64,000 nt of DNA, from NCBI GenBank assembly GCA_015059335.1, contig SVAP01000001.1:442413-506412 (forward strand). Reading direction: 5' to 3'. The notes beneath the pieces were generated by a model. It worked only from the letters and a program-made list of their open reading frames with translations, was not told the DNA's origin and did not search any database. The stretch comes from Bacillota bacterium. Its GTDB lineage: Bacteria; Bacillota_I; Bacilli_A; RF39; UBA660. A program made the translations under genes and the position numbers. Below, piece by piece: positions 9,548-48,153 of this stretch (position 1 is its first letter; the number at the start of each line of letters is the position of its first letter).

Positions 9548-9671
9548 TTACATATAAAATTTTTGATTTCTAAACTATATATTAAACAATTTTGTGATTT
9601 TGGTGTTTTGACTATTATTATAAACTGGAGTTAATATTTAAATATAGAGCTTTATTATGAAAGGAGTAAAT

Positions 9672-10562
9672 ATGAATTATTATAATGAAATTAAAAACGA
9701 ACTGATAAATAATGAGATAAATAAAAAAGTAAAAAATTATTCAATTAATAAAAGTGATTTAAATGCTTACTATAATGTTGGTAAAATGTTAAGCGAAGCA
9801 GGAAAACATTATGGTGACGGGATAATTAAGGAATATTCAGAAAAATTAAAAATAGAGTTAGGAAAAAGTTATAGCGTTAGATTATTATATAGAATGTTAA
9901 AATATTATAACTTTATTTCATCAGGAAAATTGCCGACACTGTCGGCAAAATTATCATGGAGTCATTATGACGAAATATTAAAGTTTAAAGAAATAAATAA
10001 AATTTTATATTATATCAATGTAAGTGAACAACAAAATTTATCTATTAGACAACTTAGAGAAAAAATAAAATTAAAGGAATATGAAAGATTACCAAACGAT
10101 ACAAAAAACAAAATACTTAATAAAAAAGAATCCAATATATTAGACTTTGTTAAAAATCCTATAATGATTAAAAATAGTAATAATTATAAAATTATATCTG
10201 AACAAATTTTACAAAAACTAATTCTTGAAGATATTGAGTATTTTATGAAAGAACTTGGTAATTCATTTAGTTTTATTGGAAGTGAATATAAGATTAAATT
10301 AGATAATACTTTTAATTATATTGATTTACTACTATTTAACATTGAATATAATTGTTATGTAGTAGTTGAATTAAAATTAAATGAGCTCAAAAAAGAACAC
10401 ATTGGTCAAATTCAGGTCTATATGAATTATATAGATGAAAATTTAAAGAAGATTACTCAAAATAAAACTATTGGAATAATAATTTGTAAACAGGACAATA
10501 AATATATAATAAAATATTGTTCTGATGAAAGGATAATTGCTAGAGAATATGAATTATTATAA
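9672..10562 (+). CDS. DUF1016/YhcG-type PDDEXK nuclease, tandem copy 1
   Basis: A 296-residue protein with the YhcG layout: an N-terminal DUF1016 region (YYNVGKMLSEAG, then KLSWSHYDEIL near residue 97) that is probably DNA-binding, and a C-terminal PDDEXK nuclease fold with Asp in NYIDLLL and the ExK pair in VVVELKL. The biochemical role of this family is poorly known; relatives often sit near restriction systems. The ATG at 9672 follows AAGGAGTAAAT. Its first 65 residues nearly equal copy 2. The last 14 bases overlap the start of copy 2 in another frame. An exact 19-nt palindrome lies inside the gene at 9930-9948. Confidence 0.85.
   Translation: MNYYNEIKNELINNEINKKVKNYSINKSDLNAYYNVGKMLSEAGKHYGDGIIKEYSEKLKIELGKSYSVRLLYRMLKYYNFISSGKLPTLSAKLSWSHYDEILKFKEINKILYYINVSEQQNLSIRQLREKIKLKEYERLPNDTKNKILNKKESNILDFVKNPIMIKNSNNYKIISEQILQKLILEDIEYFMKELGNSFSFIGSEYKIKLDNTFNYIDLLLFNIEYNCYVVVELKLNELKKEHIGQIQVYMNYIDENLKKITQNKTIGIIICKQDNKYIIKYCSDERIIAREYELL
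9930..9948. repeat. 19-nt perfect palindrome inside DUF1016 copy 1
   Basis: TTGCCGACA-C-TGTCGGCAA. It starts at codon position 1 and encodes L-P-T-L-S-A just before the conserved L-S-W-S-H-Y. The flanking bases break the symmetry, so it is exactly 9+1+9. Confidence 0.95.
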
Positions 10563-11433
10563 TGAAATAAAAAATGAACTGATAAATAATGAGATAAATA
10601 GAAAAGTAAAAAATTATTCAATTAATAAAAGTGATTTAAATGCTTACTATAATGTTGGTAAAATGTTAAGCGAAGCAGGAAAACATTATGGTGATAGAAT
10701 AATTAAGGAATATTCAGAAAAATTAACTTTAGAAGTTGGTAAAGGATATGGGATATCTAATTTAAAAAGAATGCGCCAATTTTATTATATGATTGAAAAA
10801 GGTGCCACACTGTGGCACCAATTATCATGGAGTCATTATAGATTGCTTATAACATTAGAGACTATCGAAGAAATTAATTATTACAGTAAGTTAGCAGTTG
10901 AGAGTTTATATTCTGTTAGACAATTAGAAAATAAGATTAAAACTAATGAATACAAAAGACTATCTGCTGAAGCCAAAGTCAAATTAATAAATAAAGATAA
11001 AATTAATATAAAAGATTTAATACCTAATCCAATAATAATCAAAAATAGTAATAATTATAAAATTATATCTGAAAAGTTATTACAAAAACTTATATTAGAA
11101 GATATACCAACTTTTCTAGAAGAATTAGGTGATGGATTTACCTTCATTAGAAATGAATATAAAATAAAAATCGGAGATTCTTACAATTATATAGATTTAC
11201 TTCTTTATAATATCGAATATAATTGTTATGTAGTAGTTGAATTAAAATTAACTGAACTCAAAAAAGAACACATTGGTCAAATTCAGGTCTATATGAATTA
11301 TATAGATGAAAATTTAAAGAAGATTACTCAAAATAAAACTATTGGAATAATAATTTGTAAACAAGACAATAAATATATAATAAAATATTGTTCTGATGAA
11401 AGGATAATTGCTAGAGAATATGAATTATTATAA
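10549..11433 (+). CDS. DUF1016/YhcG-type PDDEXK nuclease, tandem copy 2
   Basis: A 294-residue paralogue of the preceding gene. Residues 1-65 match copy 1 almost fully (N17K/R and D/R exchanges only), while the last 120 residues match copy 3 almost fully; the middle, about residues 66-140, is private and carries KGATLWHQLSWSHY. The PDDEXK residues (NYIDLLLYN, VVELKL) are intact. The start ATG at 10549 lies within the final codons of copy 1, which gives a 14-base overlap and implies translational coupling; no separate ribosome-binding site is seen. A 19-nt palindrome, with arms different from copy 1, is at 10801-10819. Confidence 0.85.
   Translation: MNYYNEIKNELINNEINRKVKNYSINKSDLNAYYNVGKMLSEAGKHYGDRIIKEYSEKLTLEVGKGYGISNLKRMRQFYYMIEKGATLWHQLSWSHYRLLITLETIEEINYYSKLAVESLYSVRQLENKIKTNEYKRLSAEAKVKLINKDKINIKDLIPNPIIIKNSNNYKIISEKLLQKLILEDIPTFLEELGDGFTFIRNEYKIKIGDSYNYIDLLLYNIEYNCYVVVELKLTELKKEHIGQIQVYMNYIDENLKKITQNKTIGIIICKQDNKYIIKYCSDERIIAREYELL
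10801..10819. repeat. 19-nt perfect palindrome inside DUF1016 copy 2
   Basis: GGTGCCACA-C-TGTGGCACC, at the same codon phase and place as in copy 1 but with different outer arms; it encodes G-A-T-L-W-H. Confidence 0.95.
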
Positions 11434-12307
11434 TGAAATAAAGAAAAAAATAATTGATGATGAAGTTTATTCAAAAATAAAGAATTATTCCAAAGAAAGA
11501 CATAGAGTGATCACTTATTTTGAAATTGGTAAACTCTTAAAAGATGCAGGTGGTAAATATGGAGATAATATAATTGATGAGTATTCTAAAAAATTAGTTG
11601 TAGAAGTAGGAAAAAAGTATAACAGAAGAACGTTATTTAGAATGAAACAGTTTTATAATGTATTTAGTAATGAAAAAGTGTCCACATTGTGGACACAATT
11701 GACATGGAGTCATATTAGATTATTATTTGGTTTAGATTATAATGCTATAAATTACTATATTCAAGTTACAATAAACAAACAAATTTCGGTTAGGAAGTTA
11801 GAAGATAAATTAAAATATAAGGAGTATGAAAGATTACCAAACGATACAAAAAATAAATTAATTAATAATAATAAATCTAGTATTGTTGATTATGTAAAAA
11901 ATCCCATAATTATTAAAAACAATCACAATTATGAAATTGTATCTGAAAAGTTATTACAAAAACTTATATTAGAAGATATACCAACTTTTCTAGAAGAATT
12001 AGGTGATGGATTTACTTTCATTAGAAATGAATATAAAATAAAAATCGGAGATTCTTACAATTATATAGATTTACTTCTTTATAATATCGAATATAATTGT
12101 TATGTAGTAGTTGAATTAAAATTAACTGAACTCAAAAAAGAACACATTGGACAAATTCAGGTCTATATGAATTATATAGATGAAAATTTAAAGAAGATTA
12201 CTCAAAATAAAACTATTGGAATAATAATTTGTAAACAGGACAATAAATATATAATAAAATATTGTTCTGAAGAAAGGATAATTGCTAGAGAATATGAATT
12301 ATTATAA
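11420..12307 (+). CDS. DUF1016/YhcG-type PDDEXK nuclease, tandem copy 3
   Basis: A 295-residue paralogue. Its N-terminal half is the most divergent of the three (KERHRVITYFEIGKLLKDAG), but its C-terminal nuclease half is nearly identical to copy 2 at both protein and DNA level, a sign of recent duplication or gene conversion. The start lies in the last codons of copy 2 (14-base overlap). The central KVSTLWTQLTWSHI carries a private 19-nt palindrome at 11678-11696. After its stop the DNA repeats the start of yet another copy, which dies after six codons. Confidence 0.85.
   Translation: MNYYNEIKKKIIDDEVYSKIKNYSKERHRVITYFEIGKLLKDAGGKYGDNIIDEYSKKLVVEVGKKYNRRTLFRMKQFYNVFSNEKVSTLWTQLTWSHIRLLFGLDYNAINYYIQVTINKQISVRKLEDKLKYKEYERLPNDTKNKLINNNKSSIVDYVKNPIIIKNNHNYEIVSEKLLQKLILEDIPTFLEELGDGFTFIRNEYKIKIGDSYNYIDLLLYNIEYNCYVVVELKLTELKKEHIGQIQVYMNYIDENLKKITQNKTIGIIICKQDNKYIIKYCSEERIIAREYELL
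11678..11696. repeat. 19-nt perfect palindrome inside DUF1016 copy 3
   Basis: GTGTCCACA-T-TGTGGACAC, at the same site and phase as in copies 1 and 2, with arms unique to this copy; it encodes V-S-T-L-W-T. Confidence 0.95.
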
Positions 12308-12314
12308 TTATTGA
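12294..12314 (+). pseudogene. Stub of a fourth tandem DUF1016 copy
   Basis: At the end of copy 3 the same overlapping start (ATG AAT TAT TAT AAT) occurs as at the two earlier junctions, but it runs into TGA after MNYYNY. Either another copy once followed or the unit boundary was copied along with the tail. Confidence 0.6.
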
Positions 12315-29692: not shown

Positions 29693-30592
29693 ATGGATTA
29701 TTATAACAAAATCAAAAATGAATTAATAAATAACGAAGTATATAAGAAAGTAAAAGATTATAGTAAAAACAGAAATGATTTGATGACATATTATAATGTT
29801 GGTAAATTACTTATAAAAGCACAAGGTGGGGAAACTAGGGCAAAATATGGCAATAATATAATAAAGGAATATTCTAGAAAACTATCTAATGAATTGGGGA
29901 AAGGATATACATTTACCGCGCTAGTAAGAATGAGGCAATTTTATTTGCAATATAAGAATGTTGCGACAATGTCGCAACTATTAACATGGAGCCATTACAT
30001 AGAATTATTAAAATTTAATGACAATAGTAAAATTAATTATTATGTTAATATTATTGAAACACAAAATTTATCGGTGAGACAACTAAGAGAAAAAATTAAA
30101 AATAAAGAATACGAAAGATTAGATAATAAGACTAGGGAAAAGTTAATATCTAAGGTAAATATCAAAATAGAAGATTATATAAAAAATCCGATTTTAATTA
30201 AAAATATTTATAATTATTCAAAAATATCAGAAAAAATATTGAAACAATTAATTTTAGAAGATTTAGACAATTTTTTAAAAGAACTTGGGAGTGATTTTTG
30301 TTATGTTGGGAACGAATACAAAATAAAATTGGGTAATAGATATAATTATATTGATATATTACTATATAATATAAAATATAATTGTTATACAGTTATTGAA
30401 TTAAAGGTAACAGAATTAAGAAAAGAACATATAGGTCAAATAAAGATGTATATGAATTACATCGATAAAAGTTTGAAAAGTGTAAGCCAAGATAAGACTA
30501 TTGGAATAATAATATGTAGAAAAGATAATCAATTTGTAATGGAATATTGTAGTGATCAAAGAATTTTTAGAACAATATACAATTTAAATTAA
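29693..30592 (+). CDS. DUF1016/YhcG-type PDDEXK nuclease, separate copy 4
   Basis: A 299-residue paralogue of the three genes at 9672-12307. It has the same N-terminal pattern (MTYYNVGKLLIKAQ with a short insertion), the central LTWSHY motif and PDDEXK residues NYIDILLYN and VIELKV. Its sequence is clearly more divergent than the tandem three are from each other. The ATG follows TTGGTGATAA, part of a 38-bp direct repeat that recurs right after the gene. It carries its own 19-nt palindrome at 29960-29978. It sits alone between efp and ezrA, which suggests insertion or reduction of an older array. Confidence 0.85.
   Translation: MDYYNKIKNELINNEVYKKVKDYSKNRNDLMTYYNVGKLLIKAQGGETRAKYGNNIIKEYSRKLSNELGKGYTFTALVRMRQFYLQYKNVATMSQLLTWSHYIELLKFNDNSKINYYVNIIETQNLSVRQLREKIKNKEYERLDNKTREKLISKVNIKIEDYIKNPILIKNIYNYSKISEKILKQLILEDLDNFLKELGSDFCYVGNEYKIKLGNRYNYIDILLYNIKYNCYTVIELKVTELRKEHIGQIKMYMNYIDKSLKSVSQDKTIGIIICRKDNQFVMEYCSDQRIFRTIYNLN
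29960..29978. repeat. 19-nt perfect palindrome inside DUF1016 copy 4
   Basis: GTTGCGACA-A-TGTCGCAAC, at the same place and codon phase as in the other three copies with yet another pair of arms; it encodes V-A-T-M-S-Q. Confidence 0.95.
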
Positions 30593-47300: not shown

Positions 47301-48153
47301 ATGAGAGATGTGATTACAACAGAAATGATTGTTAAAGAAACAAAAATTAGAGTAATGCGAGTAGGAAATATTAATTATATTTCATTGACAGATTTAGCAA
47401 AATATCAAAATTCCAGTGATCCATCTTTTACAGTTAAAAATTGGTTAAGAAGAATTACTACAATCGATTACATTGGTTTATGAGAACAAATTCATAACTC
47501 AAATTTTAATTTGGTCGAATTCGACCAAATTAAAACTAAGTATGGTAAAAATTCTTTTGCAATGTCACCAACACAATGGATTAAGAGAACTAACTCAATA
47601 GGGTTTGTTTCAAAAGGCGGTAGATATAGCATTTGAATTTGCCAGTTGGCTTTCACCCGAATTTAAACTATATTTAATAACTGAGTTTGAAAGATTAAAA
47701 ATTAACGAGTAGTATCAATATAATCTTGAGTGGAATGCCACTAGACTTTTATCAAAGGTAAATTATTTAATACACACTGATGCAATAAAAAATAATATTG
47801 TTCCAATTTTGACAGAAAAACAGAACAATTTCATATATGCTGAAGAAGCTGATGTATTAAATGTAGCATTGTTTGGAATGACAGCTAAAGAATGGAGAGA
47901 AAAAAATCCAGAATTAGCTAATTCTGGAAATATAAGAGATTATACGGATTTATTACACTTAATTATTTTAAATAATTTAGAAAATATAAATGCCCAATTG
48001 ATCAAAAGTGGTATATCTCAAAAAGAAAGATTAATTACATTAAACCAAACAGCAAAAAGTCAAATAGAATTATTAAAAGGCAATAAAAACATTAAGGAAT
48101 TAGAATATTTAGAAAAAAAGATAAATAATAATAATTTATTAGTGAATGAATAG
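47301..48153 (+). pseudogene. KilA-N domain protein (phage antirepressor-like), inactivated
   Basis: Read through its breaks, this is a full KilA-N protein: NYISLTDLAKYQNS and VKNWLRRITTIDYIGL, then EQIHNSNFNLVEFD, SFAMSPTQWIKRTNSIGFVSKGGRY, then in a new frame IAFEFASWLSPEFKLYLITEFERLK, and the conserved end AEEADVLNVALFGMTAKEWRE. It is broken by TGA at 47481-47483 (probably once Trp), by a frameshift with loss of bases near 47624-47628, and by TAG at 47710-47712. KilA-N proteins bind DNA and occur in phages and mobile elements. The ATG at 47301 follows GAAAGG. It splits dnaK from dnaJ. It carries a 32-nt perfect palindrome. Confidence 0.88.
47504..47535. repeat. 32-nt perfect palindrome inside the KilA-N pseudogene
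   Basis: Sixteen-base arms with no central gap; the core is TTGGTCGAATTCGACCAA. It lies in the segment coding for FNLVEFDQIK. Symmetry ends at 47503 and 47536. Confidence 0.95.

Follow-up and report, generated by a model that had tools for sequence, protein, structure and literature searches.

DUF1016 genes carry a palindrome that is probably the recognition site of their own protein

We analysed a 64,000-nucleotide stretch of DNA from a Bacillota bacterium (assembly GCA_015059335.1, contig SVAP01000001.1, positions 442,413 to 506,412 of the forward strand), referred to here as the window, which carries three tandem genes of the DUF1016 / YhcG family and a fourth apart from them. The coding sequence of each gene contains a 19-nucleotide (nt) palindrome which, judged from sequence comparison, is very probably the DNA sequence that the gene's own protein recognises. 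Taken as a whole, the best explanation is quite likely: a dimer of the DUF1016 protein would read the site in its own gene and, much less certainly, would act on DNA bearing that gene.

An exact 9+1+9 palindrome lies at equivalent codons in each of the three tandem genes, at 9930–9948 (TTGCCGACA-C-TGTCGGCAA), 10801–10819 (GGTGCCACA-C-TGTGGCACC) and 11678–11696 (GTGTCCACA-T-TGTGGACAC), all on the forward strand. The first base of each occupies codon position 1 and the centre lies 18 nt 5' of the W codon in the (L)(S/T)WSH motif; the first palindrome encodes the loop LPTLSA. The original prediction, made from the letters of the window, had claimed exact palindromes at equal codons starting at codon position 1, and the coordinates bear this out. 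The arms of these three hold 5–6 G/C of 9, against a window GC (guanine plus cytosine) content of 25.7%. The fourth palindrome, GTTGCGACAATGTCGCAAC (GTTGCGACA-A-TGTCGCAAC, 29960–29978, forward strand), was found by an inverted-repeat scan of the 64 kb window that was blind to gene positions, and falls inside the fourth DUF1016 gene (29693–30592, forward strand, identified by translation and Pfam), which the original prediction had not seen. In the source genome (1.3 Mb, 18 contigs), DUF1016_N matches nine times; every match has a site where expected with 7 or more of its 9 arm bases paired, mostly exact or near-exact, and no two of these sites are alike.

Homologues were drawn from 60 related genomes, 295 genomes of the phylum, 79 GTDB loci, plasmids, phages and E. 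coli K-12, together with further DUF1016 copies collected by place, giving 241 distinct genes, most of them from Bacilli metagenome assemblies. In 209 of the 241, at least 7 of 9 arm bases are paired around a centre that precedes the W codon by exactly 18 nt (offset -18). When the codon of each residue was redrawn synonymously from the codon usage of its own gene, a mean of 7.1 genes and a maximum of 17 reached this level in 1000 trials. An unbroken arm of at least 6 is present at offset -18 in 144/241 genes (1.4 in shuffles, maximum 6), and the mean number of pairs is 7.53 of 9, compared to 3.91 +/- 0.06 after shuffling. Exchange of right arms between genes lowers the pairing from 8.31 to 4.49. 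The symmetry is confined to this place: among the first 135 genes, an arm of at least 6 occurs in 3% of genes at the next best offset and in 0.06% on average at other offsets. Thus, most homologues hold the symmetry and codon-shuffled genes fall far short of it; neither of the outcomes that the original prediction had named as refuting it came about, and the proposal that selection maintains a palindrome here is supported by both. A further 22/241 homologues show comparable symmetry at a different in-frame offset; an insertion or deletion between site and motif accounts for most of these and a few may be chance.

The site sequences are diverse, with 85 different six-base cores among the 241 homologues. 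The inner ACA-N-TGT, singled out earlier as the shared element of the three tandem palindromes, is common, but it is one of several cores in the family, which also include GCC-A-TGGC, CCA-N-TGG, GCA-N-TGC, CTA-A-TAG and QQ-type sites with an unpaired centre. Members with a site are found in seven phyla (Bacillota, Fusobacteriota, Pseudomonadota, Actinomycetota, Cyanobacteriota, Deinococcota and Bacteroidota) and in Wolbachia phage WO. One homologue locus (L110) also carries, near position 2288, an inverted repeat with 19-nt arms (TCATTATCAGATTTTAATGTCATTAAAATCTGATAATGA) about 40 nt 3' of the usual site of its DUF1016 gene.

Each base of the half-site was set against all protein columns encoded outside the palindrome, with sequence weighting (~80 effective sequences) and the residue numbering of copy 2, the second tandem gene (W = 94). 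The partner residues are 123 for position 3, 98 for position 4, 74 for position 5, 70 for position 7 and 73 for positions 8 and 9, while position 6 is split between 68 and 74. The top column reaches a z of 7–10 at positions 3, 4, 5, 7, 8 and 9 and of 4.5 at position 6. By comparison, 150 control DNA columns taken from other parts of the gene have a median z of 3.1, with none above 5.4. At position 8, G occurs with K/R (97/97), C with E (7/7), A with Q (3/4) and T mostly with Y/F/W. Position 7 G accompanies R in 93/112 cases, position 5 C (G on the other strand) accompanies R/K in 108/115, position 4 C accompanies R/K in 58/59 and position 3 C accompanies K/R in 53/55. As read from the alignment, the base–residue pairs follow the classic contact code of Lys/Arg with G, Glu with C and Gln with A. 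Residues 68, 70, 73 and 74 would then read half-site positions 5–9, residue 98 position 4 and residue 123 position 3. By-eye comparison indicates that the four window copies agree with this code; their codons 68–74, assigned from the covarying residues and, for the third and fourth copies, the alignment, lie on the forward strand at 9873–9893 (S68 R70 Y73 R74), 10750–10770 (G68 S70 K73 R74), 11621–11641 (N68 R70 F73 R74) and 29909–29929 (the equivalent residues T, T, V and R).

Relatedness was controlled for by comparing pairs of relatives that are more than 55% identical. Where the position 8 base differs, residue 73 differs in 79/81 pairs, as opposed to 24/90 where the base is the same. The corresponding fractions for the other partner residues are 68/76 and 17/90 at position 7, 57/60 and 33/95 at position 5, 52/60 and 36/95 at position 4, and 47/54 and 17/89 at position 3. 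Bases were also predicted from residues by training only on sequences less than 50% identical. Prediction exceeded the baseline at positions 8 (0.96 versus 0.37), 3 (0.91 versus 0.55), 5 (0.84 versus 0.35) and 4 (0.65 versus 0.18), and was weak at position 7 (0.56 versus 0.52).

An AlphaFold model built from 84 sequences (mean predicted local distance difference test score, pLDDT, of 87) places these residues in helices. Only helices 3–20, 25–47 and 51–63 precede the recognition helix 69–83, which holds residues 70, 73 and 74, with 68 at its start; residue 98 lies in helix 94–100 and residue 123 is the first of helix 123–131. In the model, the palindrome codons encode the loop joining helices 69–83 and 94–100. 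Since the site encodes a flexible loop just past the recognition helix, reader and address lie less than 100 bp apart and would travel together as a recombination cassette. Residues 1–137 match the structures of site-bound Noc (6y93, Z 9.7 over 113 residues), Spo0J (1vz0, Z 9.6) and parS-bound ParB (6s6h, Z 9.3), values in the range under ~13 that can be non-specific in helical bundles. The match spans nearly all of the Noc domain, and ParB/Noc entries top the list for this part of the model. Sequence profiles show the same relationship for Spo0J (E = 0.015) and by hhalign for ParB (probability 92%, E = 6e-7), and Pfam HTH_ParB scores 19.4 in the window copies, below its cut-off of 22.6 (E = 0.0012). 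The ParB N-terminal (CTPase) domain was not listed by hmmscan of the four window proteins. In the ParB–parS crystal structure, DNA is contacted by the recognition helix a4 plus helices a6 and a8 (PMC7383237). By alignment, the covarying residues 68/70/73/74, 98 and 123 fall in the helices equivalent to a4, a6 and a8. A ParB/Noc-type DNA-binding fold for the N-terminal domain (1–137) is thus supported by the model. The proposal that each protein recognises the palindrome in its own gene draws support from the covariation of helix residues, its chemistry and this probable fold.

The C-terminal domain (~160–294) is, according to the model, an EndoMS/NucS-like PD-(D/E)XK nuclease with a conserved active site. 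Residues 169–294 match EndoMS/NucS with Z scores of 12.3 and 12.2, and EndoMS/NucS cuts double-stranded DNA. Among 205 full-length members, D216 is conserved in 204, and E/D231 and K233 in all 205.

Two readings that dispense with DNA recognition can be weighed against these data. The original prediction had offered a dimer-binding site or an RNA hairpin; the former is favoured here, while a hairpin in the mRNA, possibly protein-bound, that regulates translation or mRNA stability is very improbable. Arms of 8–9 bases could give a stem with a 3–5 base loop, and mismatches are commonest at the centre. However, coding-strand mismatches at positions 3–8 comprise 28 A.C and only 6 G.T, the type capable of G.U pairing that an mRNA stem would favour, and this count speaks against the hairpin. 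In addition, the covarying residues map to the helices with which ParB reads DNA, and the code is the same on both strands. It is scarcely credible that the palindromes have no function and arise by mutation, through template switching that makes imperfect inverted repeats exact, or through constraint on the amino acids of the loop. Quasi-palindrome correction is an established mutational process, yet synonymous shuffles preserve the amino acids and lose the symmetry, which moreover occurs at a single place in the gene, and the covariation with distant residues obeys protein–DNA chemistry.

The E. coli yhcG gene offers a comparison between close relatives. Two alleles diverge in a block of approximately nucleotides 240–420 and far less elsewhere. 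Within it, SAKNLRQM of the recognition helix gives way to STRNLWQF (70 K to R, 73 R to W), and the site CGCCAGACA gives way to GTGCAGACA (position 7 C to G, position 8 G to T). At the sequence level, helix and site swap together as the code predicts, and this is a natural experiment. Most of the second-type alleles read (EC-10, O121 RM8352 and E20) also keep a slightly decayed first-type site 36 nt downstream, which looks like a replacement scar; strain E21, also of the second type, has a different unit 36 nt downstream. More generally, E. coli yhcG carries extra palindromic units 3' of its own site, some matching the site of the other allele type, and these are missing from O157:H7 Z866 through a 78-nt difference. 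More than one unit per gene is essentially restricted to E. coli yhcG among the 241 homologues. No yhcG match is present in approximately 1,000 of 5,426 complete E. coli genomes, and in many others the gene is reduced to a truncated N-part or C-part. In K-12 MG1655, yhcG (locus L145, 5828–6955) has an imperfect site of its own (CACCAGACAaTGTCTGGCG) and reads LPRSTY in place of the LPWSTY of the other alleles read; this allele may be defective, a point to bear in mind in studies of yhcG in K-12.

We searched for the sites outside their genes. Neither palindrome 1 nor palindrome 2 has a second copy in the 1.3 Mb genome at up to 3 mismatches. A degenerate search for palindrome 3 at the same tolerance returned itself, palindrome 1 and one 3-mismatch match, and a backwards control gave an equal number. 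Further genome copies, which the original prediction had suggested looking for, are therefore absent at this tolerance for the first two and not convincing for the third. Near the promoter and in ~2 kb of flanking sequence, a gene's own site is not enriched over the sites of other genes, so a second operator there was rejected. As an exception, a Hymenobacter plasmid (L151) carries at position 1880 a near-copy of its own site (TCTCACCAGTGGTGAGC), 180 nt 3' of the first and within the same gene. Exact scans of viral contigs with two common sites gave 1 and 3 matches, none in DUF1016 genes, which is near the chance level by our own estimate, and viruses were accordingly set aside as targets of the site. 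A protein scan of viral contigs with the window protein found no relatives, and DUF1016 is rare in phage records (13/50,697). With a single genomic site, empty flanks and chance-like viral copies, the own gene appears to be the sole visible target of the site in the data searched.

Copies that share a genome were not found to share a core. None of 276 same-genome pairs has a common core, compared to 2.2% of pairs between genomes. Between-genome pairs matched for protein identity give an expectation of 14.9–18.4 shared pairs, and hidden duplicates removed by filtering were ruled out as the cause. The earlier idea of an identity tag fits this absence.

It is possible, at somewhat less than an even chance, that the protein acts on DNA bearing its own gene. 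Most likely, binding to the site in the gene body would keep the gene's own expression low, and extra or incoming copies with the same site would be cut. If same-site copies are cut, a genome would tolerate many copies only if their addresses differ, and the conflict caused by this self-exclusion would propel the diversification of sites. We infer that self-exclusion, probably together with autorepression, best unites the facts, and that pure autorepression is the main rival. More tentatively, we propose that DUF1016 represents a class of self-addressed genes, in which the only target of a nuclease is a palindrome in its own codons, beside the codons of the helix that reads it, and in which copies with the same address cannot coexist. 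A resident nuclease would cut a newcomer of its own address, such copies would be excluded, and addresses would thus diversify. If true, this would be a single-gene system resembling immunity or incompatibility.

Several points weigh against self-recognition followed by self-exclusion. The support is comparative throughout, and about 6% of homologues have no recognisable site. Linked transfer of helix and palindrome could alone yield their association, but as the sole cause it accounts neither for the chemical logic of the pairs nor for the links to residue 98 and to residue 123, ~100 nt away. Without identity matching, the expected number of shared same-genome pairs falls to 6, and under a stricter selection, of the 101 genes whose contig position places them in fully mapped genomes, the count is 0/205 with 2.5 expected (P 0.07). 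Orthologues among the between-genome pairs may inflate the matched expectation, so the within-genome absence is good but not final evidence. The missing shared sites could instead stem from loss of redundant copies. Lastly, since a gene persists despite containing its own site, any cutting would have to be conditional.

Autorepression only, in which the palindrome is an intragenic operator where the ParB/Noc-like domain stops transcription of the gene while the nuclease acts on DNA that the site does not choose, is a serious contender that we consider somewhat unlikely. Linkage of operator and helix, which would keep the two matched through recombination, is part of this view and no more probable. 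The evidence of self-recognition also fits it, as does the gene being the only visible target in the genome and ~2 kb flanks, and intragenic operators are known for other repressors. On the other hand, autorepression gives little reason for rapid site diversification or for unshared sites within genomes, nor for a nuclease with near-invariant catalytic residues to read the site, and no copy of the site is found near the promoter.

Alternatively, the DNA could act as a restraint, with the gene's site holding the nuclease inactive until loss or degradation of the gene, for example through an invader that destroys host DNA, frees it to attack DNA. We regard this as improbable, and likewise its corollary of an addiction or defence module whose own coding sequence is the 'antitoxin'. 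The site is unique and inseparable from its gene, the family is a phage-defence candidate in PADLOC (PDC-S02), and the genes are accessory, patchy and often beside plasmid type I restriction genes, all of which suit a restraint. Against this, one or two chromosomal sites would have to sequester the entire protein pool, truncated or broken E. coli copies are common without evident cost, and the avoidance of same-site copies is left unexplained.

The three tandem genes are arranged head to tail on the forward strand. Copy 1 (9672–10562) lies in an open reading frame of 9657–10562, with AAAGGAG preceding the ATG at 9672; copy 2 (10549–11433) starts 14 nt before the end of copy 1, and the start of copy 3 (11420–12307) overlaps the end of copy 2, so that copies 2 and 3 each begin within the end of the preceding gene in a different frame. 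Four copies of an 18-nt direct repeat, AATATGAATTATTATAAT, flank the three units of the array (9669–12308), at 9669–9686, 10546–10563, 11417–11434 and 12291–12308 (forward strand, spacing 877, 871 and 874). Together with the overlapping starts, these repeats are a simple route to gain or lose units by recombination. Comparison of copies 1 and 2 reveals a mosaic like that of the E. coli yhcG alleles, with 92–100% identity in the first 180 nt, 90–100% in the last ~240 nt and 53–72% at the site region. Both domains, DUF1016_N (PF17761) and the YhcG_C nuclease (PF06250), exceed the curated Pfam cut-offs in all four window copies (85.7 and 117.6 bits in copy 1, similar in copies 2–4; cut-offs 32.8 and 32.5). 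The PADLOC PDC-S02 profile matches with E of 1e-58 to 1e-64, and the library grades it as a phage-defence candidate only.

The genes directly next to the array read as thrS and hisS, and no partner methylase belongs to the window unit. In 11 relatives where thrS was found, neither a DUF1016 gene nor hisS was found within the 1.5 kb examined around it; with hisS not beside thrS in these relatives, no clean empty insertion site could be read. On four plasmid loci (L146, L147, L151 and L152) the DUF1016 gene lies inside a type I restriction operon, preceded by an hsdM-like methylase gene in three and by hsdR in one. It is followed by hsdS in three of the four, the fourth having an unannotated gene there. 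Elsewhere in the window, a perfect 16+16 palindrome (TTTTAATTTGGTCGAATTCGACCAAATTAAAA, 47504–47535) is apparently intergenic.

In the open-access literature, we found no functional work on DUF1016, YhcG or COG4804 beyond a nuclease prediction of 2005. That paper predicted the PD-(D/E)XK nuclease of DUF1016 / YhcG, and left the N-terminal domain without a confident match and the function unknown (PMC1189080). A self-encoded site with a recognition code was likewise not found described in this open-access literature, and another paper or preprint may describe one. If our reading is correct, the protein sequence of DUF1016 is partly dictated by DNA symmetry, with the amino acids of the loop changing so that its DNA stays palindromic. 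Since reader and address share one gene, every sequenced member with a site would be a DNA-binding protein whose cognate site comes with it. The family would be a ready data set from which to derive a protein–DNA recognition code for the ParB/Noc fold, and might supply many orthogonal DNA-binding proteins whose 19-bp sites are known. A nuclease family found both in E. coli and widely among bacteria would also gain a first testable function. A general question follows, namely why a nuclease would need to recognise its own gene.

We compared these features with known systems. By profile, the window genes are full members of the DUF1016 / YhcG family (PF17761 + PF06250, COG4804; PADLOC PDC-S02). 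DUF1016 probably shares with ParB/parS and Noc/NBS the DNA-binding fold, the three helices that contact DNA and the reading of a palindrome by a dimer. A parS site also lies inside the B. subtilis spo0J gene. As appears to hold for DUF1016, a few residues change specificity in ParB/Noc (PMC7383237). DUF1016 differs in having no detected CTPase N-domain and an attached nuclease domain, and in its site, which occurs once per gene, in the own coding sequence of almost every member, and is highly diversified where theirs is conserved. ParB and Noc have several conserved sites outside their own gene, whereas the search for full DUF1016 sites in the source genome gave no convincing second copy.

Homing endonucleases also tie a nuclease to a recognition site at its own locus, but the homing gene interrupts and destroys its site, while the DUF1016 reading frame holds the site intact. 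Type II restriction enzymes and their controllers share the PD-(D/E)XK fold and a palindromic site; in contrast, DUF1016 would recognise a long, near-unique site in its own gene, and the window unit has no methylase, although DUF1016 is often found in type I restriction operons. Finally, repressors with intragenic operators, phage immunity and plasmid incompatibility place a site in or near the regulator gene, and elements of the same specificity are mutually exclusive. Their operator normally lies outside the codons of the regulator's own DNA-binding region, they normally show no family-wide coevolution of operator and regulator, and the regulator is not a nuclease. DUF1016 combines a site within the codons of its putative DNA-binding domain, coevolution of site and reader across the family, and a predicted nuclease.

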